Assembly (NCBI GenBank): GCA_017624495.1
Contig: JAGAMY010000032.1
Coordinates: 1-55,023 of the forward strand
Length of the DNA stretch: 55,023 bases
Source of the DNA: Lachnospiraceae bacterium
GTDB taxonomy: Bacteria; Bacillota; Clostridia; Lachnospirales; Lachnospiraceae
Direction: 5' to 3'
Position 1 is the first letter of the stretch. Each line of letters starts with the position of its first letter. Shown here in pieces: positions 34,401-46,811 of this stretch. The position numbers and the translations under genes were made by a program. A model generated the notes under the pieces. It was not told the DNA's origin. It worked only from the letters and a program-made list of their open reading frames with translations, and did not search any database.

Positions 34401-34433
34401 GTAGCGGTATCGGCAGAAGATAAGGAGTATATA

Positions 34434-34979
34434 ATGATTTATTTCATGTTGTTAGAAACGGAAGAGGATAGAAAATATTTTCGAAAAATTTATGAGGAGA
34501 ATTATTTGAAAATGTATCATATTGCCTTAGGGTTTTTGCATGAAAAATCCGAAGCAGAAAATGCGGTACATGAAGCTTTTTTATCCTTAGCAGAAAATTT
34601 TCAAAAATATTCGCATATTTCCGGTAGACAAATGGACAACTTCTGCGTTTCTATAGTGAAGAACAAATCCATTGACATCCTGCGAAAAAGAAATCACTAC
34701 AGTGAAGACGAGTTAGAAGCTTTGGATTTGCAGCAGAATAATGAAACCGCGAACCCGGAAAATGTGCTATTAAATAAAGAAACAAAGCAAATGATAGAAA
34801 AAGCATTAACGAAGGTATCTGAAGTTTTTAGGGAAACATTAATATTAAAATATGTGTATGAAATGAGTAATAAGGAAATTGCCCGTATACAGGGCGTTTC
34901 CGTAAAAACAGTAACCATGCGCATATACCGGGGAAAGCAGCAGCTAAAGGAGGTTATCCATGAAGAAGACATTCCGTAA
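34434..34979 (+). CDS. RNA polymerase sigma factor, ECF-like sigma-70 family
   Basis: This 181-residue sigma factor has region 2 (AENAVHEAFLSLAENF and FCVSIVKNKSIDILRKR) and region 4 with helix-turn-helix (LKYVYEMSNKEIARIQGVSV, then KTVTMRIYRG). It lacks regions 1 and 3, as ECF factors do. It overlaps the following DUF4367 gene by 20 bases, the usual layout of a sigma factor with its membrane anti-sigma partner. Targets are unknown; the small exported protein genes downstream are candidates. Confidence 0.88.
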   Translation: MIYFMLLETEEDRKYFRKIYEENYLKMYHIALGFLHEKSEAENAVHEAFLSLAENFQKYSHISGRQMDNFCVSIVKNKSIDILRKRNHYSEDELEALDLQQNNETANPENVLLNKETKQMIEKALTKVSEVFRETLILKYVYEMSNKEIARIQGVSVKTVTMRIYRGKQQLKEVIHEEDIP

Positions 34980-35646
34980 TGAAGATGTGGAAATTCGGGA
35001 TTTTTTAGTACAGATGCATGAATACCAGATGGCGCAGATTCCACCGCGAGAGGTGTTAGAGGAAACCTATCTCTTATCTGATATTTTTTATCAGAGAATT
35101 GAGCGTCTGCTAAAGGCACAGGAGAAAAAAGCGAAATTTCGAGAGCTGCGAAGAGGTCTGGCGGCGGCAGCCGCCGTGGCTGTTATCCTATTTAGCGTAG
35201 CAAATCCCCAGTATGTAATAGAAGCGGCGGAAAAGGTGGTACAATGGTTTTCAGACCATGTTTCCTATAACTTTTATGAGGGGAAGGATGTTAACGTTTT
35301 TCCACGACATGCATTGGGATATGTACCGGAAGGGTATGTGTTGGAAGTGAGTGAATATTATGATGGTTTGGGAGTAGAAGAATATGTAAATGAATATGGA
35401 GAGACATTATCTTTTGTATATGCAGTAACAAGCAGTGAAACAAATCTGGATAATGAAGAAAAAGATTACATTGTTTTGGAAGGAAGTAAAGGGGAGACTA
35501 TACATTATCTTAGAGCATGGGATGGTGAAGAAAGTTCTATGATGTGGGTAAATGAAGATAAAACCATAGATTATTGTATTATGGGAATATTTAGCGAAGA
35601 GGAATTATTGAAAATACAGGAAAGTTTATATATTGTAGAAGAGTAA
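34960..35646 (+). CDS. Membrane protein with DUF4367, probable anti-sigma factor
   Basis: This 228-residue protein has a cytoplasmic N-terminal region of about 65 residues, one membrane helix near 67-85 (GLAAAAAVAVILFSVA) and an extracellular DUF4367-type domain (ALGYVPEGYVLEVSEYY, near 115, to the end). AAAGGAGG precedes the ATG within the sigma gene. The arrangement fits an anti-sigma factor that holds the sigma factor at the membrane; the anti-sigma function is inferred from overlap and topology. No zinc-binding HxxxCxxC motif was seen. Confidence 0.8.
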   Translation: MKKTFRNEDVEIRDFLVQMHEYQMAQIPPREVLEETYLLSDIFYQRIERLLKAQEKKAKFRELRRGLAAAAAVAVILFSVANPQYVIEAAEKVVQWFSDHVSYNFYEGKDVNVFPRHALGYVPEGYVLEVSEYYDGLGVEEYVNEYGETLSFVYAVTSSETNLDNEEKDYIVLEGSKGETIHYLRAWDGEESSMMWVNEDKTIDYCIMGIFSEEELLKIQESLYIVEE

Positions 35647-35655
35647 CGATTTGTG

Positions 35656-35699
35656 AAAGGTTGAAAATAGGTGAATTTCAAGGCGTGTTTTCAACCTTT
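35656..35699 (+). terminator. Intrinsic terminator after the sigma/DUF4367 pair
   Basis: AAAGGTTGAAAA (35656-35667) pairs perfectly over 12 bases with TTTTCAACCTTT (35688-35699), followed by a broken T tract. Confidence 0.7.
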
Positions 35700-35824
35700 A
35701 TTTATAAGAAAAAATTTTTTGAAAAATTTTCAAAATTTGGTAGACATTTTGCTTTCTTCTACGTTTCTTATATAGGAGCATGTATTAAAAGTGTTTCTAT
35801 TACGAAAGAAGGGAGGAAAATATA

Positions 35825-36226
35825 ATGTCTAAAATGAAAAAAATCATTGGGTTAATGTTGGTGTTTGCAATGGTAATAGGATTTGAGAGTACGGTAGTTC
35901 ATGCATCAGAAGTAGCACTTTGTTATGTGAATTCATCGAATTGTACCGTTACACTTAAATTTAGCAGTAATACAGCAAATTGTTCACTTTATGTTAAAGG
36001 CAAAAGTGGAACATCAAGTATTTCCGGCACATTGAAATTGTACGATGTAACAGCTTCAAAAACAGTAAAAACGTGGACAATTTCCAAAACAGGTTCTTTA
36101 TACACAGGCAGCAAATCCAAAGCAGTGACCGCAGGACATAAGTACAGATTAAGCTTTAGCGGAAAAGTGTATGACAAGAATAATGTTGCTGAATCTGTAT
36201 CGGCGAAAGTTACGAAAAAGAATTAA
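35825..36226 (+). CDS. Small secreted protein, function unknown
   Basis: This 133-residue protein has a signal peptide with likely cleavage after VHA near residue 27. The mature part (about 105 residues) is rich in Ser, Thr, Lys and Val with alternating hydrophobic residues, typical of a beta-sandwich. It contains two cysteines in NSSNCTVTL and NTANCSLYV that could form a disulfide. GGGAGG precedes the ATG. It follows the sigma/anti-sigma pair, and could be part of its regulon, but no domain is recognised. Confidence 0.65.
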   Translation: MSKMKKIIGLMLVFAMVIGFESTVVHASEVALCYVNSSNCTVTLKFSSNTANCSLYVKGKSGTSSISGTLKLYDVTASKTVKTWTISKTGSLYTGSKSKAVTAGHKYRLSFSGKVYDKNNVAESVSAKVTKKN

Positions 36227-36287
36227 AGAGGAAGTAGTACATGGACATTTGAATTATTTAACTCAGTTATATAATGGAGTATGAAGT

Positions 36288-36617
36288 ATGGTAAAAAAAT
36301 TAAAATTTGATTTTTTGTTGAGTTTAGTGGCAGTTGTTTATATACCACTTAGCAACTTTGCCAGATATTATACACAAAGAAATTATAATATTAGTTTGGG
36401 TTTAGTTGTTCAGTTGTGTGTACCAGTTGTTCTGGGAATACTTATGTTTTGGGTTTCACAGTATGAAAAAAATAAGTCTGAATTAATATTGTGGTTTATA
36501 TGTAATGGCATATTTGCCTTTGCCGAATATTTTCTTTTTTTACAGATACCTATATATAATATTATGCTATGTGGATATTTTGGAATGGCTTTAATGACAT
36601 ATAGAAAATCTAAATAG
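36288..36617 (+). CDS. Small integral membrane protein, function unknown
   Basis: This 109-residue hydrophobic protein has three or four predicted membrane helices (LLSLVAVVYIPLSNF, LVVQLCVPVVLGILMFWV, LILWFICNGIFAFAEYFLFL and a final short one) and a basic end. A weak GGAG site lies before the ATG. No family is recognised. Confidence 0.55.
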   Translation: MVKKLKFDFLLSLVAVVYIPLSNFARYYTQRNYNISLGLVVQLCVPVVLGILMFWVSQYEKNKSELILWFICNGIFAFAEYFLFLQIPIYNIMLCGYFGMALMTYRKSK

Positions 36618-36724
36618 GTTTCACGAAGGGCAGAAACATCTAATTTAAGTACAAATGTGATAAAGATATTTGTGAAGAAATTTGTAAATTGTATGAAGAA
36701 TTTGTTGAAAATAAAATGTAACTG

Positions 36725-36767
36725 TTTAGTACAGGTCAAAATATTTGCTGTTTTGACCTGTACTAAA
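36725..36767. repeat. Perfect 17-base inverted repeat
   Basis: TTTAGTACAGGTCAAAA (36725-36741) and its exact complement (36751-36767) flank a nine-base loop. T or A runs at the stem ends allow it to act as a bidirectional terminator; it could also be the footprint of a small mobile element. It lies in the 232-base gap between two small membrane protein genes, which otherwise shows nothing. Confidence 0.75.
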
Positions 36768-36849
36768 GTGCAATATGAGGAAATTATGAGATACTATACA
36801 AAAGAAAAAACAGAATCCGCCGGATACATAGAAAATGGATGGTGATAGT

Positions 36850-37119
36850 ATGAAATTGTTAAAAAAGAAAATGATATTAGATATTTTGGTGATTGGAGGT
36901 ATCATTTGTATAACATTGGTAAGATTAGCAAGGTTAGGTGAAGTAGAGTTGTCTTTATGTGCGCAATTTGTACTAGTAATTATGGGGATAATACTGTTGA
37001 TTGGAGGGGGAGTCTATTTGTTCCGTAAATATCGTTGCCCTTGGTGTCATCGTATATATCCAGGTGTATTTACTGTATGGACGGAAGAGTGTCCGCATTG
37101 TGGAGATAAAATTGAATAA
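36850..37119 (+). CDS. Small membrane protein with C-terminal zinc ribbon
   Basis: This 89-residue protein has a basic start, two membrane helices (ILDILVIGGIICITLV and QFVLVIMGIILLIGGGVYLF) and a C-terminal zinc-ribbon-like motif with CPWC near residue 65 and CPHC near residue 83. No function is known. The ATG at 36850 is preferred, but one at 36835 is in frame. A decayed copy of its middle and end lies at 38162-38265, on the far side of the Fic gene. Confidence 0.6.
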   Translation: MKLLKKKMILDILVIGGIICITLVRLARLGEVELSLCAQFVLVIMGIILLIGGGVYLFRKYRCPWCHRIYPGVFTVWTEECPHCGDKIE

Positions 37120-37269
37120 ACATAAGTAAAGGATTAGGATGTTTTTTGAAACGGCAAAAATAAAACAAGTATCTTGATGGAAAATGTAATTATTGCCGAT
37201 AATATGTTATACTTTTTACTGGATTAATATAGTTATTAAATTGAGATATAAGACAACGGAGGAGAGCAT

Positions 37270-38160
37270 ATGCGATATCTATCTGTTACAGAAATAGCGA
37301 AAAAATGGAATATATCTGAACGAAGTGTAAGAAACTATTGTGCTCATGGGCGTGTGGATGGTGCTTTTCTTACTGGTAAGACATGGAACATTCCTGAGAA
37401 TGCAGAAAAACCAGAACGTACAAATAAAAAAAAGGAGCAACCGAAGACACTATTAGATATTTTACAAAATGAAAAGCAGAATAAGTATTCTGGTGGTATT
37501 TATCACAAAACACAGATTGATTTGACTTACAATTCTAATCATATTGAAGGTAATCGACTAACATATGAACAGACAAGATATATCTTTGAAACAAATACAA
37601 TCGGTGTAGAGAACGAAGTTTTAAACGTGGATGATGTTATCGAAACAGCAAATCATTTCCGTTGTATAGATATGATTATTGATAATGCTAAAGCTTCTTT
37701 ATCGGAAAAATTCATTAAGGAAATACACTTGATTTTAAAATCTGGAACAAGTGATGCAAGAAAAGATTGGTTTGCAGTGGGAGACTACAAAAAAATGCCG
37801 AATGAAGTAGGCGGGATGACAACTGTATTGCCGGAAGATGTTGCCGATAAGATGAAGAGTTTGCTGGCAGAATATAATTCAAAAGACAATAAAACATTTG
37901 AAGATATTTTGGAGTTCCATGTTAAATTTGAAAAAATACATCCGTTTCAAGATGGAAACGGACGTGTTGGTAGACTGATTATGTTTAAAGAATGTCTGAA
38001 ATATAATATTGTTCCATTCATTATCGAAGATACTTTAAAGTTATTCTATTATCGTGGTTTGAAAGAATGGAACAATGAAAGAGGATATTTGCGTGATGCA
38101 TGTTTGACAGCACAAGATAAATATAAGGCGTATTTGGATTATTTTAGAATTGAATATTAA
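37270..38160 (+). CDS. Fic family protein with N-terminal helix-turn-helix
   Basis: This 296-residue protein has an N-terminal helix-turn-helix-like region (LSVTEIAKKWNISERSVRNY, residues 4-23) and a C-terminal Fic domain with the complete core motif HPFQDGNGRVGR near residue 225. Fic enzymes usually transfer AMP from ATP to a hydroxyl of a target protein. The segment SNHIEGN near residue 93 matches the inhibitory motif S/TxxxEG/N upstream of the Fic core, indicating an autoinhibited (class II) enzyme. GGAGAG precedes the ATG. The target is unknown. No separate antitoxin is adjacent. Confidence 0.9.
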   Translation: MRYLSVTEIAKKWNISERSVRNYCAHGRVDGAFLTGKTWNIPENAEKPERTNKKKEQPKTLLDILQNEKQNKYSGGIYHKTQIDLTYNSNHIEGNRLTYEQTRYIFETNTIGVENEVLNVDDVIETANHFRCIDMIIDNAKASLSEKFIKEIHLILKSGTSDARKDWFAVGDYKKMPNEVGGMTTVLPEDVADKMKSLLAEYNSKDNKTFEDILEFHVKFEKIHPFQDGNGRVGRLIMFKECLKYNIVPFIIEDTLKLFYYRGLKEWNNERGYLRDACLTAQDKYKAYLDYFRIEY

Positions 38161-38161
38161 T

Positions 38162-38265
38162 TTAGCTGAAGTAGAGTTGTCTTTATGTGCACAATTCGTA
38201 CTAGTAATTATGGGAATATGACTGGAAGTGTGTTCGTACGGTAGTGATAAAACTGAATTTGAATA
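38162..38265 (+). pseudogene. Decayed duplicate of the zinc-ribbon membrane protein gene
   Basis: Bases 38162-38219 repeat 36934-36991 of the upstream gene with about four or five differences. After a deletion of roughly 100 bases, 38229-38265 again resembles the end of that gene (GTGATAAAACTGAA against GAGATAAAATTGAA). The copy has no start and lacks both CxxC motifs, so it is not functional. It begins directly after the Fic stop codon. Confidence 0.7.
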
Positions 38266-38283
38266 AAGAAGGAGAATTTGCAT

Positions 38284-39000
38284 ATGAAAAAAATATTCAT
38301 AGGTATTGTGACTGTAGTTGTTTTAGGCATTATTTTTTATGCTTGGGATACCACTAGAGATATTCAGGTATTTCAGGAAATGAAGGCATCGGATTTTAGC
38401 AAAATTGAAATATGGAGTGGTGATACGTTAGCAGAGATTACGGAAGAAAAGGATATACAACGATTTATAGACATACTTCAGTCTACACATATACATAAAA
38501 GAAAATCGCCTGACAGGGCAGGCGGATGGATTTTGGCAGACCTGTATTATAAGAGTGGGGAGCAGCAGGTGATGTCAATTGCAGTAGACCAGATAAATGT
38601 AGGGGATGGGGAATATAAAAGTGAAAAGAATATTTATGATGAAATAAGTAAACTGTATGAAGAATTTGCTGCTGGAAATCCATACAAAGGGTGTATTCTT
38701 ACCATAGAAGAGCTAGAGAGGGTAACAGATATATATTTTTATGTTTCGGACAAAAAGCAAAGAGTTTTATCGGAAAAGGATAAAAGTGCCATTTTAGTTG
38801 AAATTATGAACATAAAATTGACAGAAGAAGATAAAATTCCAGAAGATGAGTGGATAGAAGGCGGCGTGATGGTGACACTTGCGCTAGAAGATGGGGAAAC
38901 GATAGAATTTGCATGTGATGATAATTTTGTCGCCTTTGGGGAGCAATATTTTGTGCAGAATAAAGTTGCTTCTATGTTGATGGAAGTGGAGAGTGAATAA
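38284..39000 (+). CDS. Exported or membrane-anchored protein, function unknown
   Basis: This protein of about 238 residues has an N-terminal hydrophobic helix (IFIGIVTVVVLGIIFYAW) that is either an anchor or uncleaved signal, then a soluble acidic region. Two similar segments, FSKIEIWSGDTLAEITEEKD near residue 40 and VTDIYFYVSDKKQRVLSEKD near residue 145, suggest an internal repeat of a small alpha/beta domain. The ATG at 38284 has AAGGAG nine bases upstream. It is not clearly linked to the transporter genes further on. Confidence 0.65.
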   Translation: MKKIFIGIVTVVVLGIIFYAWDTTRDIQVFQEMKASDFSKIEIWSGDTLAEITEEKDIQRFIDILQSTHIHKRKSPDRAGGWILADLYYKSGEQQVMSIAVDQINVGDGEYKSEKNIYDEISKLYEEFAAGNPYKGCILTIEELERVTDIYFYVSDKKQRVLSEKDKSAILVEIMNIKLTEEDKIPEDEWIEGGVMVTLALEDGETIEFACDDNFVAFGEQYFVQNKVASMLMEVESE

Positions 39001-39019
39001 AAAATGCAGGGATATGTTA

Positions 39020-39217
39020 TATGAGCATATCCAAATTAATACCACCATGTCATCACCTAAATCGTTATTTAAAGAATATAAAAATAAAACACAGGTAGTT
39101 GAATATACGAACAAGAGTATTGCAAAAAAAGGTGCATTGGGAACGTTATATTTAGGTGGTAATGAAAATAATACAAAAAGTTATACACTTACATTAGCAG
39201 GAAGATATACATCGTAG
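39020..39217 (+). pseudogene. C-terminal remnant of a small secreted-type protein
   Basis: An open stretch ends with a Thr/Ser-rich, beta-strand-like sequence (KKGALGTLYLGGNENNTKSY then TLTLAGRYTS) that looks like the end of an exported protein, but it has no signal peptide and no ribosome site. It may be a gene fragment left by deletion. An alternative is a very small gene using an internal start. Confidence is low. Confidence 0.35.
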
Positions 39218-39229
39218 GAAAGCATTATA

Positions 39230-39256
39230 ATGTGCCAGACTGTTGCGGTCTGGCAC
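39230..39256 (+). promoter_or_regulatory. Stem-loop directly before the first exported-protein gene
   Basis: TGTGCCAGAC and GTCTGGCACA form a perfect 10-base-pair stem around a seven-base loop, 18 bases before the ATG at 39275. It is followed by AAAAG, not a T run, so it is more likely a leader structure or operator than a terminator. Confidence 0.5.
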
Positions 39257-39274
39257 AAAAGAAAGAGGAACAAT

Positions 39275-40444
39275 ATGAAAAAACAAAAACCAATCATTTT
39301 GTCTGCATGCTGTATACTAACCGTACTATTTTTATACAACCATATACAGGCAGGAAAAGAAATTATTACATCGGAAACAAGTGCAGATAGTATAGAAAAT
39401 GAAAACATAGAATTCCCAACAGAATACAAAAAGGATGTCAGTTCCACACTATGTTTTGATGCAGACGTAGTTGTACCAAAAGATGTAGATGTAAACAATA
39501 TATACTGGGGAACAGCAACAAGTGCACCGCTTGACAGTAAAAAGATAAATACATACCTCTTTGGCAACAGTACAGATGTCATGCGTGAAAAAAACACAAA
39601 AGAAAATCCGGCAGTTAATCGTCAGGGAGAAGAGATTGATTGGGAGATTGCAGAAGACGAAAATGGCAGATATATGTTATTGGAAGAAAATTCATATCTG
39701 TCCTTTAGCGATGACCCGGAATACACCTACATTGAAAATTGTATCTGGAGTGATAAACGTGGTGGTTCAGATAATCTAGATGTCTATTCTACAACAGACA
39801 ATTTAGATTTTATGGAAAGAACACAGGCAAAAGAGAATATTAAGCAGGCATTTTTAGAGATGGGAATTGATACAGAGCATACACAGTGCACATCATATGC
39901 TATGGATTTAGAAACTATGAAAACACAGGAAAATATATTAATGCAGGAAAATGCCATGGAAACTTCGGATAAGAATCCCAAATGGGATAAACTACAGGAA
40001 GGATATTACTTCTTCATGCGTCAGACTTTTCAAGGGCTTCCGGTATATGCAATCACGGATGTAAATCGTGGAATATGGGATAATCCTGCGGATAGTCCAT
40101 TGCAGATTTTTTATAATAGTCAGGGTGTGGCAGGGATATCTATTTTGAACTATTTCAAAATGGAAAAAAGTGAGGAAAAAATGCAGTTGGCATCCTTTGA
40201 TAAAATCGTGGATACAATAGAAGAAAAATATGAGGATATTATCAATGCAAATAAATTGACGGTAAAGCGAATGGAATTAGTAGAATTTCCGGTATATAAA
40301 AAAGATGGAATTTATCAGATGCAGCCGATTTGGATGTGTTATTTGCAGGTGACAGACGAGAATGGAAATAATCCGGAAACTTTATATATACAAATGCCGG
40401 TTTATGCAGATACAGCAAAAGAAGCAATGGAGATTGAAACCTGA
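39275..40444 (+). CDS. Exported protein of duplicated ABC cassette, copy 1
   Basis: This 389-residue protein has an N-terminal hydrophobic segment (IILSACCILTVLFLYNHIQA) with two cysteines that could allow lipidation. It is followed by an extracellular region with no recognised domain. It shares order and motifs with the protein at 42090-43238: EFPTEYKKDVSSTLCFDADV (39275 copy) parallels VFPERFEKNVSDTFSIQADV, and QGLPVY occurs in both near residue 260. The ATG at 39275 with GAGGAA before it is used. It touches the next gene, so all three cassette genes are co-translated. It may belong to a DUF6034-like group; that is from memory and untested. Confidence 0.75.
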   Translation: MKKQKPIILSACCILTVLFLYNHIQAGKEIITSETSADSIENENIEFPTEYKKDVSSTLCFDADVVVPKDVDVNNIYWGTATSAPLDSKKINTYLFGNSTDVMREKNTKENPAVNRQGEEIDWEIAEDENGRYMLLEENSYLSFSDDPEYTYIENCIWSDKRGGSDNLDVYSTTDNLDFMERTQAKENIKQAFLEMGIDTEHTQCTSYAMDLETMKTQENILMQENAMETSDKNPKWDKLQEGYYFFMRQTFQGLPVYAITDVNRGIWDNPADSPLQIFYNSQGVAGISILNYFKMEKSEEKMQLASFDKIVDTIEEKYEDIINANKLTVKRMELVEFPVYKKDGIYQMQPIWMCYLQVTDENGNNPETLYIQMPVYADTAKEAMEIET

Positions 40445-41244
40445 TGAGAAAATACCTAAAAATGGATATAAACAGAGCTGTATGTGCAAAGGATTTTTAT
40501 ATAGGAATCCTTTGTGTAATATGTGCCTGTTGGTTTTGTACATATCAAATGAAAGAGTATGATGTATATACAATGTTTACTTACATAAGCTGGCAGGGAA
40601 CATATACATTAGTTTATGCGGCAGCAGTAATTTCTTATGCGGCGGTTTTTTTAGAGGATGCGGAATATCAGTTTTGGAATTTGTCAGTTTTAAGAGGGGA
40701 TTTTAAAAGCTATGTTTGGGCAAAGGTATTGGCATGCTTTTTCGTAAGTACATTGACGATGACACTTGGAATGACTATTTTTTGCTTTTTATGGCATTTA
40801 AAAAATCCATGGTCGCACTTTGCAGCAAGTGATATGGAAGTAATACAGAATATGGATTGTTTTCGGAATCTGATGAAACCAGAGACCATTACTCTCTATT
40901 TTATTTGTGGTGCATTATTAAGGAGTCTTTTGGCAGGAATCCTTTCTTTGATAGCAGCATACGTTTCCTTATATATAAAAAACAGATTGTTTGTATTGAC
41001 AGTTCCGGTAGTTGCTTATTTTTTTCTTGTAAATTATCTGATGTCAGGTCTGAAATTGCCGGAGATTTGTAACATTTGTTATATTTTTGAGCCGCAGGGA
41101 GCAATTTTTTCAGATTCTGTCTGGCAGATACCTTATGCAATAGGTGTAAGCGCAGGTATTATTTTTCTTTTGAAAATAGTAATCGAAAGAAAACTTTACA
41201 GAGAAATTCGCAGCGAAAAAATGAGAGGTAAGGTAAAATGCTAG
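40444..41244 (+). CDS. ABC-2-type membrane subunit A, copy 1
   Basis: This 266-residue integral membrane protein has about six hydrophobic segments, matching the ABC-2 export permease pattern. The motif LEDAEYQFWNLSVLRGDFKS after the second helix is shared with its paralog at 43241-44029 and resembles the cytoplasmic coupling region seen in bacitracin- and lantibiotic-type exporters. Its ATG overlaps the stop of the exported-protein gene, and its end overlaps the next gene by seven bases. No ATPase follows directly; the shared ATPase is at 44861-45502. Confidence 0.78.
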   Translation: MRKYLKMDINRAVCAKDFYIGILCVICACWFCTYQMKEYDVYTMFTYISWQGTYTLVYAAAVISYAAVFLEDAEYQFWNLSVLRGDFKSYVWAKVLACFFVSTLTMTLGMTIFCFLWHLKNPWSHFAASDMEVIQNMDCFRNLMKPETITLYFICGALLRSLLAGILSLIAAYVSLYIKNRLFVLTVPVVAYFFLVNYLMSGLKLPEICNICYIFEPQGAIFSDSVWQIPYAIGVSAGIIFLLKIVIERKLYREIRSEKMRGKVKC

Positions 41245-42068
41245 AGCAGATGTCAAATATCCGAAGCCGAATATGGAATGTCAGAGGAATTTCATTTTTG
41301 GTATTGCTGGTATATATTATAAATATGTACATGCTGACACTATATGATGCAATGGAATTGTTAGGTGGAAAAGTGAATGTTTCATTGTTTCCATTTTTAT
41401 TAAATGATTCTTATTTTCACAAATTGTTTTTGTTATTAGTTTTGCTTTTTTATGCAGACGCACCTTTTATGGAAAAGAACCAGATGTATAGTGTACTGCG
41501 GATAGGAAAACAACGATGGAATAAAAGGAATATTACATACATTTTTATAAGCAGCTTTTTATTGGTTTTGTGTGCAGAAGTACTTACAATGATTCATGTG
41601 CTGCCTATAGGAGAGTTTTCAAATACATGGAATAAAGTTTCACGCACAATTGCATTAACAGATATAGGAAATAGTATTTATTTTGGACTGGATTATACTG
41701 TGATGAAGCAGTTTTCACCGATAGAATTGTTTGTATATGGTTTTTTATCTACACAGGCAGTAGTGATGTTTTTTGGGATGCTTATGTATACAGTTAGCCT
41801 TTGTGGAGGAAGAATCTGGGCGTATACAGTGTCTGCGGCAGTTCTGTTTATACCACAGATAACCTTTTTGATGATGTTTCATTCGGATATAAGTTATTTT
41901 TCACCGGCAGAGTGGATGCGGTGTAAATGGTGGAGAGGAGAAGCAAATCCGGCAGGTATGGATTTGTTATATATTATTCTGGCAACCGGAGTACTGTTGG
42001 TTGTTTTATCCGTTATTGCAGAATGGAAGGTGCAAAAAGCGGACTGGGAAGCTAAAAATGATAAATAA
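41238..42068 (+). CDS. ABC-2-type membrane subunit B, copy 1
   Basis: This 276-residue membrane protein has about six hydrophobic segments. YADAPFMEKNQMYSVLRIGK and RWNKRNITYIFISS near residue 75-105 are conserved in the second copy at 44032-44853 (APFMNRSELYVVIKTGR and NWGKRNIGYI), showing ancestry in common. With subunit A it would form the transport channel. The start overlaps subunit A, with GAGGTAAGG just upstream. Confidence 0.78.
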   Translation: MLEQMSNIRSRIWNVRGISFLVLLVYIINMYMLTLYDAMELLGGKVNVSLFPFLLNDSYFHKLFLLLVLLFYADAPFMEKNQMYSVLRIGKQRWNKRNITYIFISSFLLVLCAEVLTMIHVLPIGEFSNTWNKVSRTIALTDIGNSIYFGLDYTVMKQFSPIELFVYGFLSTQAVVMFFGMLMYTVSLCGGRIWAYTVSAAVLFIPQITFLMMFHSDISYFSPAEWMRCKWWRGEANPAGMDLLYIILATGVLLVVLSVIAEWKVQKADWEAKNDK

Positions 42069-42089
42069 AGGGAAGCGAAAGGACAAATC

Positions 42090-43238
42090 ATGAAAAAAAT
42101 TATTAAATCTGGAGTAATTATTGCTATATGCATAGTAGCAGTTGGGGTTATGTGGACACAATCACATTCAAAAGAAAGTGTACTTGAAGTAACAAAGGAA
42201 AATACCAGTGACAAAACAGAAACGGATGAGGAAATTGTTTTCCCGGAAAGGTTTGAAAAAAATGTAAGTGATACCTTTTCAATTCAGGCAGATGTTATTG
42301 TGCCGGATGCATTTGATGCACAACAGCTTTATACAGCAGAAGCACACATTATAAAACCGGATGAAGAGAAATGGAAAGCTGCTTTTTTGAATGGAACAGA
42401 CTATGTAGAAAGTGACTATGAAGAGGTTAGCAGAGAGCAGAAAAATATTGTATGTAAAGGGTATGAAAAAGAGGGAGACAGGGCATTGTATTTGTCAGAA
42501 CAGGCAGCATCTTTGTATTTAGATAAGTATACCTATACATCGAATTGTCTGATATGGGATTATTCTACATCCGAAGGATATAACAGGGACAATTTTTCAA
42601 CGGACGAAAATCTGCCTTTTGCAGAGAAGGAAGAGGTCTGGAAAAGTATAAATGAAAAGTTAGAAACATTAGATATTCCTATGGAAAATGCATTTACAGA
42701 AAAGGTTTATGCACTGCCATACCAGTCTTTACAGGAGCAGGAATTGTTAGCAGTAGAACGTGGAGATTTAGACAGAGAAGAAACAAAAGACATCTGGAAT
42801 GAAAAGGATGATGCATACTTTTTTTATATATGGCAGAATTGTCAGGGGCTGCCGGTATATCCGGACGGCTATGTACAGGAATATGATGTTGAAAATATTC
42901 CCGGTGGAATAGAAGTATGCTGTACAGAAGAGGACTTTTTATTTTTAAATGTTTCTTATTGGATGGAGTTTGAAAAATCAGCAGAAAAAATAAAGTTATT
43001 ATCATTAGATAAAATTATGGATACGGTAATTGAAAAATATGGACAGGTAATCAACGATTCTCCGATGACATTAACATCCTGCAGATTGTTTGAAGCACCG
43101 ATTTTAAAGGAAGAGAATACATATGAAGTAGTACCTGTATGGATTTGTAAAATAGAATTGGAAGAAATGTCATATGATATGTATTTGCCAATTCATGCGG
43201 TAACGGGAGAAATTGTAAAAGAAATGGAATTAAGATAA
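42090..43238 (+). CDS. Exported protein of duplicated ABC cassette, copy 2
   Basis: This 382-residue protein has a hydrophobic N-terminal helix (IIKSGVIIAICIVAVGVMW), then an extracellular region that parallels the protein at 39275-40444 along its length: VFPERFEKNVSDTFSIQADV near 50, a central FYIWQNCQGLPVYPDGY, and the late SLDKIMDTVIEKYGQVINDS matched by SFDKIVDTIEEKYEDIINAN. The copies have diverged well beyond recent duplication. Function is unknown; a substrate-capturing or peptide-sensing role for the transporter is possible. Confidence 0.75.
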   Translation: MKKIIKSGVIIAICIVAVGVMWTQSHSKESVLEVTKENTSDKTETDEEIVFPERFEKNVSDTFSIQADVIVPDAFDAQQLYTAEAHIIKPDEEKWKAAFLNGTDYVESDYEEVSREQKNIVCKGYEKEGDRALYLSEQAASLYLDKYTYTSNCLIWDYSTSEGYNRDNFSTDENLPFAEKEEVWKSINEKLETLDIPMENAFTEKVYALPYQSLQEQELLAVERGDLDREETKDIWNEKDDAYFFYIWQNCQGLPVYPDGYVQEYDVENIPGGIEVCCTEEDFLFLNVSYWMEFEKSAEKIKLLSLDKIMDTVIEKYGQVINDSPMTLTSCRLFEAPILKEENTYEVVPVWICKIELEEMSYDMYLPIHAVTGEIVKEMELR

Positions 43239-43240
43239 AA

Positions 43241-44029
43241 ATGGTAAGAAATTATTTAAAAGCGGATATGTACAGATTATTGTGCTCACCGCAGCTTTAC
43301 ATAGCAGCAGGAAGTGTATTAGCGGTGTATATGGTAAGTACTCTGCAAAATATGTGGGGAGGGTGTGTATTAGACACCTTTTGGATTGTAAAATTTTATA
43401 GTTTTATTATCTGTATGTTTGCAGGGGCAAGTATTAGTTTTTCCAATAGTCTGTTAGAAGATACGGAGCATAAATTTTTCGAAATCTCTATTCTAAGAGG
43501 AAATTGTAAGGCATATGTCCGGTCAAAGGTTATTTGCTGTTTTGTAGCCTCTGTAAGTGCGATAATATGTGGAACAGTACTTTATGCTGCATTATTGCAT
43601 ACGAAAATCCCTTTTTTTTCAGAGATAGAAGGATATTCCAATGTGGATGCCATCAGGGAAAATGAGATTTTTGGCAGTCTGATTACAGAAAATGGATTTG
43701 TGTTATATTTTGTATGCTCAGGCTTGATGATGGGATTGCTGGGAGGCATGTTATCACTGGTATCCATGTGGCTGTCTTTAATTGTAAAAAACCGGATGTT
43801 TGCCATTTGTTTTCCAATTATAGGATATTATTTTGCTGTAAATTATTTAAGCGGACTATTTGGCATGGAAAGTGTTCTGTTTGATATCAATGGTATATAT
43901 TTGTATTTCTGTTATGTATTTGAAGGAAAACCGATATATTCCTTTTTATATGCGGTTTTTCTGGCAGTTTGTGTTAGTCTGGTGTTGGAAAAAGGCATAT
44001 ATCAGCGTGTATGTCGGAGGTGGAGGTAA
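43241..44029 (+). CDS. ABC-2-type membrane subunit A, copy 2
   Basis: This 262-residue membrane protein is the paralog of 40444-41244. LEDTEHKFFEISILRGNCKA and YVRSKVICCF near residue 75-105 match LEDAEYQFWNLSVLRGDFKS in copy 1, and MLSLVSMWLSLIVKNRMF matches ILSLIAAYVSLYIKNRLF. It begins two bases after the exported-protein stop and is followed after two bases by subunit B. Confidence 0.78.
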   Translation: MVRNYLKADMYRLLCSPQLYIAAGSVLAVYMVSTLQNMWGGCVLDTFWIVKFYSFIICMFAGASISFSNSLLEDTEHKFFEISILRGNCKAYVRSKVICCFVASVSAIICGTVLYAALLHTKIPFFSEIEGYSNVDAIRENEIFGSLITENGFVLYFVCSGLMMGLLGGMLSLVSMWLSLIVKNRMFAICFPIIGYYFAVNYLSGLFGMESVLFDINGIYLYFCYVFEGKPIYSFLYAVFLAVCVSLVLEKGIYQRVCRRWR

Positions 44030-44031
44030 GT

Positions 44032-44853
44032 ATGAAGCTAAAAAACAGCAGAGAAGCATATTTTCACAGGTGGTGCTCATTTCGCACGCTGACACTTCTA
44101 TTCATATGGATATATTTGTTAGACTTAAATTTACAGGGCTATCGTGATATTGCAAAAATGTGGGGAGAAACAGATACCTTTGCAATTTTACCTTTTTTAC
44201 AGACAGATACATATTTTACAAAACTGTTATTAACCGGTGTGCTGTGTTTCTTTTCTAATGCACCGTTTATGAATCGTAGTGAACTATATGTGGTTATAAA
44301 AACAGGAAGAAAAAACTGGGGAAAAAGAAATATAGGGTATATAGTTTCTAGTAGTATTTTATTAGCAGTAGTATTGCAAGTATTAAGTATGCTTATGATA
44401 TTGCCCACCATAACATGGACGAATAGCTGGGGAAGTATATATAAGACTTTGGCAGTCAGAGGAAGTGAATTAGGATTTAACTTTTCGGATGCTGCGATGG
44501 ATGTGTATACGCCCCTACAGTTAATCATCTATGTTTTTCTCATTGATATACTGGCATTTACTTTTATGGGTATGCTTTTATATACGCTTAGCCTGTATAT
44601 ATCAAGAATAGGGAGTTATTTAGTTACTATTGGCTGTATATTTGTGACAACAATGGAAGCATTTGTACCCTTTTCCATCAGCTATTATTCACCTTTTTCG
44701 TGGATTGATTTGGAAATGTGGAGGTATGGAACAAGTTTGGATAAACCGAATCTTGTATATATTTTTACGGCATATATTTTTGTGATATTTGTGCTTTGCA
44801 TGCTGGCACAAAAGCGTATATGCACGGTAGAATGGAATGAAAAAGAGGAGTAG
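44032..44853 (+). CDS. ABC-2-type membrane subunit B, copy 2
   Basis: This 273-residue membrane protein is the paralog of 41238-42068 and shares the APFM-x-x-x-x-x-Y and W-x-KRNI-x-YI motifs. Both copies end with a region containing SYYSPFSWIDLEMWRYG or SYFSPAEWMRCKWWRG. The ATG at 44032 is chosen because GGAGGTGGAGGT lies just before it, inside the end of subunit A. The ATPase gene starts seven bases after its stop. Confidence 0.78.
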   Translation: MKLKNSREAYFHRWCSFRTLTLLFIWIYLLDLNLQGYRDIAKMWGETDTFAILPFLQTDTYFTKLLLTGVLCFFSNAPFMNRSELYVVIKTGRKNWGKRNIGYIVSSSILLAVVLQVLSMLMILPTITWTNSWGSIYKTLAVRGSELGFNFSDAAMDVYTPLQLIIYVFLIDILAFTFMGMLLYTLSLYISRIGSYLVTIGCIFVTTMEAFVPFSISYYSPFSWIDLEMWRYGTSLDKPNLVYIFTAYIFVIFVLCMLAQKRICTVEWNEKEE

Positions 44854-44860
44854 AGGAAAA

Positions 44861-45502
44861 ATGGCAGAAATTATTTGTGTAAAAAATGTTTCAAAAAAAT
44901 TCGGTGCGCAGACCGTTTTAGAAGATGTTTCATTAACCTGTGAAGCAGGAAAAATCTATGGCATTATAGGGTATAATGGTTCTGGAAAAAGTGTTCTTTT
45001 TAAATGTATTTGTGGTTTGTATCATGCAGATACCGGAGAAATACATATTCGGGAAAAACAGTTAGGAAAAGACATGGATATGATTGAAAATGCAGGTGTT
45101 ATTATCGAAGAACCAGCCTTTTTAAAACAGTATAGCGGCTTACGGAATTTAGAATTGTTATGGCTTTTAAATAATAAGAAAGATAGCAAAAAATTGCAGG
45201 ATGTAATGCGGACAGTAGGATTAGACCCGGCAAATCGTAAGCCTGTGGGTAAATACTCCCTTGGGATGAAACAAAGACTTGCCATTGCACAGGCGATTAT
45301 GGAAGAGCAGGATATATTGATTTTAGATGAGCCGATGAATGGTTTAGATAAAGACGGTGTAGCACAGATGCGGGAATTATTTTTGCGTTTTAAAGAAGAA
45401 GGGAAGACATTGTTGTTTGCCAGTCATAATGCGCAGGATATTGATGTACTTTGTGATGAGGTATATGAAATGGATAAGGGAAGATTAGAAAGGATACGTT
45501 GA
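44861..45502 (+). CDS. ABC transporter ATP-binding protein (BcrA/LanF-like)
   Basis: This 213-residue ATPase has Walker A GYNGSGKSV near residue 38, Q-loop region IIEEPAF near 83, signature-like YSLGMKQRLAIAQA near 133 and Walker B ILILDEPMNGLD near 155, with the switch His in FASHN. The SLGMKQ signature is typical of bacitracin/lantibiotic self-protection and drug-export ATPases. It is the only ATPase for two permease pairs, so it probably energises both. Start with AGGAAAA before the ATG at 44861; the upstream in-frame start lies inside subunit B. Confidence 0.9.
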   Translation: MAEIICVKNVSKKFGAQTVLEDVSLTCEAGKIYGIIGYNGSGKSVLFKCICGLYHADTGEIHIREKQLGKDMDMIENAGVIIEEPAFLKQYSGLRNLELLWLLNNKKDSKKLQDVMRTVGLDPANRKPVGKYSLGMKQRLAIAQAIMEEQDILILDEPMNGLDKDGVAQMRELFLRFKEEGKTLLFASHNAQDIDVLCDEVYEMDKGRLERIR

Positions 45503-45513
45503 TGGTATCCTTT
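45489..45513. terminator. Terminator between ATPase and convergent PadR gene
   Basis: AAAGGATAC (45489-45497) pairs perfectly with GTATCCTTT (45505-45513), spanning the ends of both genes, with a T-rich tail on the plus strand. Confidence 0.65.
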
Positions 45514-45892
45514 ACTCTTTTTCTGTTTGTTTTTCATAAGTATCTCCCTCATTTGAAGTAAGCAAAAATGCAATTATATCGGTGAAATCTGCATAAGACT
45601 GTTTTAAATCAGATAAATATGCAAGACCGGATTCTTCTAAATGATAATACACTCTGGTCTGTCGTTTGCCGACTTTTTTTTCGTAGAAAGAAATATGATT
45701 CTGGTCTGTAAGACGATAGAGGATAGGATACATAGACCCTTCTAAAATCGTATAATTGCCATTGCTTCTTTTTTTCAACTCTTGAGAAAGCTGGTAGCCA
45801 TACATGTCACCTTCAGCTAAAAGTTTAAGAAGAAACATTTCAATAGTGGCTTTTTTTAAATTTGATAATAATGTTGATTTTGTTTTTTTCAT
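45512..45892 (-). CDS. PadR family transcriptional regulator
   Basis: This 126-residue DNA-binding protein has the PadR winged helix: LLKLLAEGDMYGYQLSQEL near residue 20, LEGSMYPILYRL near 49 and KRQTRVYYHLEESGLAYL near 76. PadR proteins commonly repress neighbouring drug or peptide transporter genes and are released by the transported compound. It is convergent with the dual-cassette ABC operon, so control of that operon is likely but inferred. Confidence 0.9.
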   Translation of the reverse strand: MKKTKSTLLSNLKKATIEMFLLKLLAEGDMYGYQLSQELKKRSNGNYTILEGSMYPILYRLTDQNHISFYEKKVGKRQTRVYYHLEESGLAYLSDLKQSYADFTDIIAFLLTSNEGDTYEKQTEKE

Positions 45893-45928
45893 ATAGACAA
45901 CTCCGTTAAAATGTGCATCTCTTTTTAT

Positions 45929-45957
45929 AGTATAAGTGTGGTTGTTTGTGAAATCAA
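45929..45957 (-). promoter_or_regulatory. Probable promoter of the padR gene
   Basis: On the minus strand TTGATT (45957-45952) and TATACT (45934-45929) are 17 bases apart, about 37 bases before the padR start. The rest of the gap to 46172 shows no gene. Confidence 0.55.
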
Positions 45958-46172
45958 TACCTAGAATGAAAATATGGTTATAAACTGTAAAAAATTAAAT
46001 GATTTTCTTGCTAGAGTACTGTAAACATGCTAAAATCAACACAAAGCATATTTTCTTTATGACAAATCGAATATCTAATATCTTTTAATTCAGAAAATCC
46101 ATGCTTGATACCCAATATATACAAAAGCAGAAGGATTTTCAGAAAGCCTCCTGCTTACATAAGGAGGAGAAG

Positions 46173-46766
46173 AAATTTTAGAAATTACAACTCTAGAAAA
46201 TGCTATTTATATGAATTATAAAAATGATATATCCTTTGTTTTTGATTTTTATTTGGCGCTTTATGAGCATCAGTCTACCATAAATCCCAATCTGCCTCTA
46301 AGGGACTTAATTTATGTTACAAAAGTTTTGCAAGGAATCATTAGAAACATTAGAAGCTTGTCAGACATTGAAGGAATATGCTGAATATGTAGAACAGGTC
46401 AGAAGCTTTGCGAAGATATTACCTTTACAGGAAGCGGTGGAAAAAGCTGTAGACTATTGTATACAGAATAATATTTTAACAGATTTTCTAAAAAAGAATC
46501 GTGCGGAGGCGATAGAAATGAGCATATTTGAGTATGATGAAGAAAAACATCTGAAAAACGAACGTGAATATGGATATGAGCGTGGGAACGATGCAGGATT
46601 ACAAGAAGGTGTAAAACTAGGAGAAGAGCGGTTGATGAAATTAATACAGATAATTATGGCAGAAGAAAAGGATGTAAAGAAAGATGAAATGTTAACACGC
46701 CTTTTTGTAGATGCAGAATATCGAGAAATGCTATATAAGAAATACAGGATGTTTTTTAACGATTAA
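46173..46766 (+). pseudogene. Broken Rpn-type (PD-(D/E)XK) nuclease/transposase-family gene
   Basis: Bases 46173-46313 encode, in one frame, TLENAIYMNYKNDISFVFDF followed by LYEHQST and LPLRDLIYVTKVLQG, typical of the N-terminal half of Lachnospiraceae Rpn-type proteins. From about 46314 the next frame gives the usual C-terminal half: LETLEACQTLKEYAEYVEQV, NRAEAIEMSIFEYDEEKH and YERGNDAGLQEGVKLGEERL. The middle part and frame are lost at about 46310-46350, and the extreme N-terminus is missing too. The intact part from 46314 to 46766 could encode 150 residues but would lack the nuclease centre. Confidence 0.7.
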
Positions 46767-46811
46767 AATAAAATTATTGACTTTTCCTTCAAACCATGCT
46801 TAAATAAAAAC

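Follow-up and report, generated by a model that had tools for sequence, protein, structure and literature searches.

Why would two tandem sets of genes, each coding for an exported protein (S) and two permease subunits (A and B), share one ATPase gene (N)? The question is raised by a locus in the window analysed here, positions 1 to 55,023 of contig JAGAMY010000032.1 of a Lachnospiraceae bacterium (GenBank assembly GCA_017624495.1); this contig is C47 of a 1.93-Mb draft genome that is ~55% complete. We tentatively favour the reading that the locus is a composite of two S-A-B-N modules of Clostridia, an orphan immunity locus directed against two secreted proteins of a type called C below and driven by one motor. 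The genes of the locus are as follows.

39275-40444, + strand: S1, exported protein with an N-terminal membrane anchor; the S family profile leads to PDB 5coz
40444-41244, + strand: A1, permease subunit A, 37% identical to its orthologue in genome G308 (locus L161)
41238-42068, + strand: B1, permease subunit B, 42% identical to its orthologue in G308 (L161)
42090-43238, + strand: S2, exported protein with a YycI/YycH-like fold
43241-44029, + strand: A2, permease subunit A, 43% identical to its orthologue in genome G301 (locus L160)
44011-44853, + strand: B2, permease subunit B with an ABC-2 exporter fold
44837-45502, + strand: N, the sole ATPase of this kind that the genome assembly contains, 71% identical to N of G301 (L160)
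45489-45513, no strand assigned: terminator-like hairpin between N and the PadR gene
45512-45892, - strand: PadR-family regulator, convergent (PF03551, 63.6 bits)

The seven open reading frames (ORFs) and the convergent PadR gene lie where an earlier note on this DNA, made from the sequence alone, had placed them. S1-A1-B1-S2-A2-B2-N form one compact + strand operon, in which adjacent genes overlap by no more than 19 bp or stand no more than 21 bp apart. Terminator-like sites number five in the region, against 3.2 expected in shuffled sequences. The tandem order, common ancestry and strong divergence described in the earlier note were borne out: identity is 28% between S1 and S2 (E 4e-44), 32% between A1 and A2 (E 4e-32) and 32% between B1 and B2 (E 3e-50), and comparison of A1 with B1 revealed no resemblance. 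The conserved stretches between the copies are no more clustered than expected by chance (P 0.06 for S, 0.41 for A and 0.14 for B), so that motifs such as LEDxE/LRG and KRNI support no claim beyond homology.

N is an intact ATP-binding cassette (ABC) ATPase. It matches Pfam ABC_tran with 110.9 bits and retains the Walker A, signature (SLGMKQ), Walker B/D-loop and H-loop motifs, with a glutamate at the Q-loop place. Its best NCBIfam model (protein P0007) is TIGR03740, lantibiotic protection ATPase, at 179.5 bits, below the cut-off of 309.75; with this limit, its earlier description as a LanF/BcrA-like ATPase holds. No further ATPase of this type was found in the assembled genome, where N scores 356 bits and the next best protein 124; a profile search of the same assembly revealed no further S or B genes. 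Among the PADLOC anti-phage models, N matches 14 that include an ATPase (best mad3, 94.3 bits), and no family was found at E<=0.01 for the proteins S1 to B2 (P0001-P0006) or for PadR (P0008).

To what extent is this arrangement usual? A total of 134 stretches were annotated: 40 from genomes of the family, 80 named loci selected by their ATPase (the best 80 of at least 586 confirmed ATPase matches) and 14 more. Seven loci whose ATPase sequence is the same as that of another locus were dropped, giving 127 distinct loci; L054 and L163 overlap on one contig yet count as two among them. With the score limits used, S-A-B-N is present in 84 of the 127 and A-B-N in 108; in L059 and L168, N is present but scores at or below the 200-bit limit. 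The order S-A-B-S-A-B-N was found in none of the 127. B-like genes are present in at least 52 of 299 family genomes with a two-row profile and at least 95 of 397 with a 24-row profile, both being lower bounds from scoring some candidates per genome. A single S-A-B set with its own ATPase is thus the usual unit, the very finding that the earlier note had named as telling against its view of the repeat as a four-permease architecture of its own. Nor is that view supported by the separate single-cassette orthologues that the two cassettes have in the genus.

The doubled form is real, and was otherwise met in the survey solely as a differently ordered locus in genome G130. Two A-B pairs, each with an ATPase, occur in L046, L116 and L139. 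With the 24-row profile, B genes separated by less than 5 kb were otherwise seen in just two places: on contig C32 of G201, where 4.8 kb and an ATPase gene separate the two (L046), and in G225, where they are fragments of a single gene. On contig C13 of G130 (L163 and L054) the order is N-A-B-S-S-S-A-S-B, with one N in 34.5 kb. Seven B copies of this genome were examined (a further B match on C33 lies outside this set): three adjoin an N (the first copies on C13 and C17, and the copy on C33) and four do not (the second copies on C13 and C17, L055 and L164). The existence of A-B pairs without an adjoining ATPase elsewhere makes the sharing of an ATPase credible. A literature search retrieved no paper on duplicated permeases with a shared ATPase.

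Other variations were observed among the relatives. The loci of G130 (L163/L054 on C13, L055, L066 and L164) include S-like ORFs of ~900 amino acids, and this genome has at least seven B copies. Tandem S genes precede a single A-B-N in L036 and L079, and in L079 each S has its own upstream C. A cluster of 17 loci, L094 (Bacillus niameyensis) and L128 among them, encodes a related exported protein of ~490 amino acids directly downstream of N; in L094 a second ATPase gene also lies downstream of N.

Since cassette 1 has no adjoining ATPase of its own, N most likely powers both pumps, and would dock on A1B1 and A2B2 alike. It is scarcely credible that A1, B1, A2 and B2 instead build one heteromeric transporter: the single ATPase and single operon of the window would fit such a complex, but the relatives have one A and one B per ATPase, as in the 84 S-A-B-N loci, and two A-B pumps sharing N would be the simpler arrangement.

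The origin of the two cassettes was sought among 15 genomes of the genus, seven of which gave any match. G308 carries a single S-A-B-N module whose S, A and B are 41, 37 and 42% identical to cassette 1, against 23, 34 and 29% to cassette 2. The single module of G301, whose contig is that of L073 (Lachnospiraceae bacterium IMSAGC_012), shows the reverse: 37, 43 and 46% to cassette 2, against 26, 33 and 35% to cassette 1. The N of the window is 71% identical to that of G301 and 59% to that of G308. In maximum-likelihood trees of S, A and B (13-14 rows; the B row of L139 was taken from its second cassette), copy 1 groups with G308 (supports 96/96, 93/90 and 90/89) and copy 2 with G301 (98/97, 94/97 and 85/81); in the tree of N, the window groups with G301 (92/92). 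In trees of 30 rows that lacked G308, S1 grouped with L033, copy 2 grouped with L073, and A1 and B1 had no resolved position. By sequence, cassette 2 and N can be assigned to one lineage and cassette 1 to another, which elsewhere has its own ATPase. As each cassette is orthologous to a different single-cassette relative and the trees agree, the window is a composite of two lineages.

The same comparison bears on whether the locus is an in-place duplication now decaying, with cassette 1 redundant and on its way out. The presence of only one ATPase and the apparently truncated C ORF (see below) would suit such decay. However, all six cassette ORFs are open, and the two copies resemble each other less than each resembles its own single-cassette relative, which makes their split old; we regard in-place decay as very improbable. 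Cassette 1 may have entered between C and S2; alternatively, a complete tandem such as those of L046 and L139 may have lost its first N and second C. In G143, the nearest relative within the genus, two flanking proteins are 98% and 91% identical to their counterparts and the flanking DNA is 83-90% identical, and 1.5 kb of other DNA stands in place of window positions 34401-46776 (12.4 kb). The locus therefore sits in a variable segment. Both versions of this segment (window 34401-46776; L176 6021-7562) start with what looks by eye like a sigma-factor/anti-sigma pair.

What might such a module act on? In many loci the ORF directly upstream of S codes for a protein of 130-160 amino acids, named C, with a Sec-type signal and an end resembling G-R-Y-T-P; L034, L035, L039, L073, L075, L113 and L138 are examples, among others. 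An iterated profile was applied to the 74 S-A-B-N loci whose sequence extends 700 bp or more upstream of S, and placed C inside that distance in 30 of them. Of 45 C matches in distinct loci, some of which are pieces, 44 are situated upstream of a module gene at a distance of no more than 1.5 kb. When 29 C seeds were compared with 299 whole genomes, 11 non-seed matches had E<1e-5 and six of these lie within 4 kb of a B gene (G082, G201 twice, G025, G260 and G169); the listing also has many weaker matches, mostly to the signal part. Co-variation was calculated over the 31 loci in which C, S, A, B and N are each clearly present once, two-module and incomplete loci being left out: the correlation of C is stronger with S, A and B (r 0.61-0.63) than with N (0.41). 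The partial correlation of C with S given N is 0.53, and that of C with N given S is 0.23; mean identities are 20% for C, 18% for S, 20% for A, 23% for B and 54% for N. Matched specificity would give a co-variation of C with S, A and B.

The window itself has two ORFs resembling C.

38993-39217, + strand: 74-residue ORF without a signal peptide, likely a 5'-truncated remnant of C, 57 bp before S1
35825-36226, + strand: 133-residue protein with a Sec-type signal, possibly a distant and uncertain member of the C family

The 74-residue ORF is probably a truncated C, as judged by its similarity to C of L073 (32% over 74 columns, E 1.9e-6 in a set of 45) and of L075 (50% over 24 residues), and by a second comparison (E 5.6e-5). 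L073 and L075, whose C ends resemble its own, are close relatives of cassette 2. With a C profile lacking its row, the ORF has E 0.0037 in the whole genome, and a match on contig C37 that looks unrelated, to the signal part only, ranks above it (E 0.0019); a profile match with E 1.7e-5 is void, the ORF having been a row of that alignment. The 133-residue protein matches an iterated C profile that leaves it out (E 1.3e-4) and is 31% identical to a small ORF of L109; it lacks the usual C-terminal end and was not recovered at E<=1 by a further C profile (A11). Between the two ORFs lie a protein that by eye resembles a Fic-family enzyme (37270-38160) and a 240-residue exported protein (38278-39000). 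Beyond the operon, a 150-residue ORF (46314-46766) is 47-51% identical to ORFs of ~310 residues adjoining S-A-B-N in L086 (the same as L038) and L173.

The folds of the products were also considered. S has the same fold as PDB 5coz (EUBREC_2869 of Eubacterium rectale, titled 'uncharacterized'), found by the S family profile, and is similar to YycI/YycH across most of the solved chain. Pfam YycI (PF09648) gave no match at E<=1 for S1 (P0001) or S2 (P0004), and matched two of 25 S family members (best E 5.7e-5). NisI and SpaI are not among the fold matches listed for S, which excludes nothing. S1 and S2 have a hydrophobic N-terminal anchor and no lipobox; the family consensus has a lipobox-like LxGC. 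A count of lipobox patterns (62 of 95 distinct S) was set aside as rough, missing likely lipoboxes and wrongly including S1. Searching the literature for 5COZ, EUBREC_2869 or the protein DUF6034 brought up just one unrelated paper, and none was retrieved on a YycI-like protein paired with a bacteriocin transporter.

B2, on which the fold assignment of the permeases is based, is modelled as an ABC-2 exporter subunit closest to PmtD, with Foldseek E-values that are weak by themselves (best 0.049). Pfam scans gave nothing for 24 A proteins and two single stray matches for 24 B proteins, PDB sequence profiles of A and B gave no credible relative, and viral contigs, at the sensitivity of the search, yielded none for B2 or S2. 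Given the intact ATPase motifs and the predicted permease fold, from B2 only, the system has the features of an ABC-2 exporter. It is improbable that it exports a hydrophobic peptide or lipid as PmtCD does, with S an extracytoplasmic accessory and C merely co-regulated; B2 resembles PmtD in fold, and identity to the PmtCD exporter (6xjh) and to NosFY is 10-12% in the aligned part.

The frequent location of the module beside a small secreted protein suggests protection against secreted antimicrobial proteins. In this reading, C would be a bacteriocin-like protein, S would capture or sense C-like proteins outside the membrane, and A-B-N would expel C or shield or free its target, on the pattern of LanI and LanFEG in lantibiotic self-protection. 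With its C apparently truncated, the window would protect but not attack, and its two diverged cassettes would represent two specificities. The earlier note had suggested a role against antimicrobial peptides; the C genes beside the module elsewhere favour such a putative role.

Several observations weigh against this reading. C is present in just 30 of the 74 suitable loci, and these linkage counts are partly circular, the profile having been seeded from such loci. Five of the 11 non-seed matches lie away from a B gene (G146, G171, G014, G103 and G116), and the cassette-1 relatives L033 and L161 have no C directly upstream (510 bp are available in L161). C has no credible relative in the Pfam, NCBIfam and PDB scans run, and its Sec-type signal means that A-B-N is not needed for its export. 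Shared descent contributes to the co-variation. The self-protection function of a LanI/LanFEG-like C-S-A-B-N module is putative, as are the toxicity and immunity of its members. Tree supports are moderate for A1, B1, B2 and N, and no branch of the N tree earns the program's star. The portion of the genome absent from the assembly might encode a second ATPase. Finally, S resembles the regulators YycI and YycH, and so could signal rather than protect.

This last point underlies the main rival, which we consider rather unlikely: S would be a YycI/YycH-like regulator of a membrane kinase, A-B-N would report peptide flux, and C or an Agr-type peptide would be the signal. YycH and YycI act on the kinase WalK, and BceAB reports peptide flux to its kinase; the fold of S equally allows such a role. 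Recurrent neighbours, counted before removal of duplicates and labelled by eye, include response regulators in 36 loci and sensor kinases in 30, and one or other cluster is present in 31 of the 84 S-A-B-N loci. An AgrB cluster occurs in seven loci, one of which (L075) is confirmed by Pfam. However, in 53 of the 84 the sequence inspected, which a contig end cuts short in some cases, has neither a response regulator nor a kinase cluster, and neither was seen in the ORF lists of the window, where PadR is found instead. The earlier note described related exporters as often controlled by PadR or a two-component system; PadR is not a regular partner of this module. With the PadR of the window as the single sequence in the profile, weak matches were obtained in two of 40 loci besides the window (L050 and L056), none in the 80 named loci and none above 25 bits in the 14 further stretches.

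Returning to protection, we advance with still more reserve a wider proposal, that C-S-A-B-N is an undescribed antagonism system widespread in Clostridia. It would comprise a Sec-secreted C (its end often G-[RKWN]-[YW]-x-P), Agr-like quorum sensing in some loci, an S resembling a receptor and two permeases, all matched to that C, and an ATPase that is generic. S-A-B would be modular, and the window would be an orphan locus with two specificity cassettes on one motor. Should S-A-B cassettes prove to be interchangeable units of specificity that draw on a common ATPase, the locus would be a natural experiment in how ABC protection pumps gain new targets, and the C-S-A-B-N module would point to an unnamed set of proteins, secreted by gut Clostridia, that could be assayed for antimicrobial activity.

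How does the locus compare with known systems? It is a variant of the protection-type ABC exporters and not a new class; the more novel element is the unnamed C-S-A-B-N module behind it. From YycI (2o3o), YycH (2fgt), YpeB (5boi) and PDB 5coz, S differs by its operon link to an ABC transporter. In the lactococcin 972 system, a Sec-secreted bacteriocin protein has transporter genes beside it; the Pfam and PDB scans did not link C to that family. A glutamate at the Q-loop place, as in N, is a hallmark of LanF, a point on which a literature search found no paper.

The closest likeness is to LanI with LanFEG (NisI/NisFEG), which consist of one membrane-associated exported protein, two permeases and one ATPase (PMC5786555), and whose ATPase model TIGR03740 is nearest to N. 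The locus differs in that N misses the TIGR03740 cut-off, the exported partner has a YycI-like fold, the ATPase gene comes last, and the cassette is doubled. LanFEG systems have two six-helix ABC-2 permeases per ATPase and a LanI-type lipoprotein; the window has four permease genes and one ATPase, and S1 and S2 carry no lipobox at the anchor. The product associated with the module is a Sec-type secreted protein of ~130-160 amino acids. NsrFE1E2G was rejected as a precedent for extra permeases: E1 and E2 have two and four helices, making 12 in total with NsrG (PMC5786555). CprABC of Clostridioides difficile, likened here by its description, has an ATPase, two permeases and an adjacent lipoprotein, CD1348, and lies outside a lantibiotic biosynthesis operon (PMC5786555); it is a single set and is controlled by CprRK. 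The earlier note knew of no described system of this composition; the composition S-A-B-N is that of LanI/LanFEG and of CprABC with its lipoprotein, and only the doubled form is therefore unusual.
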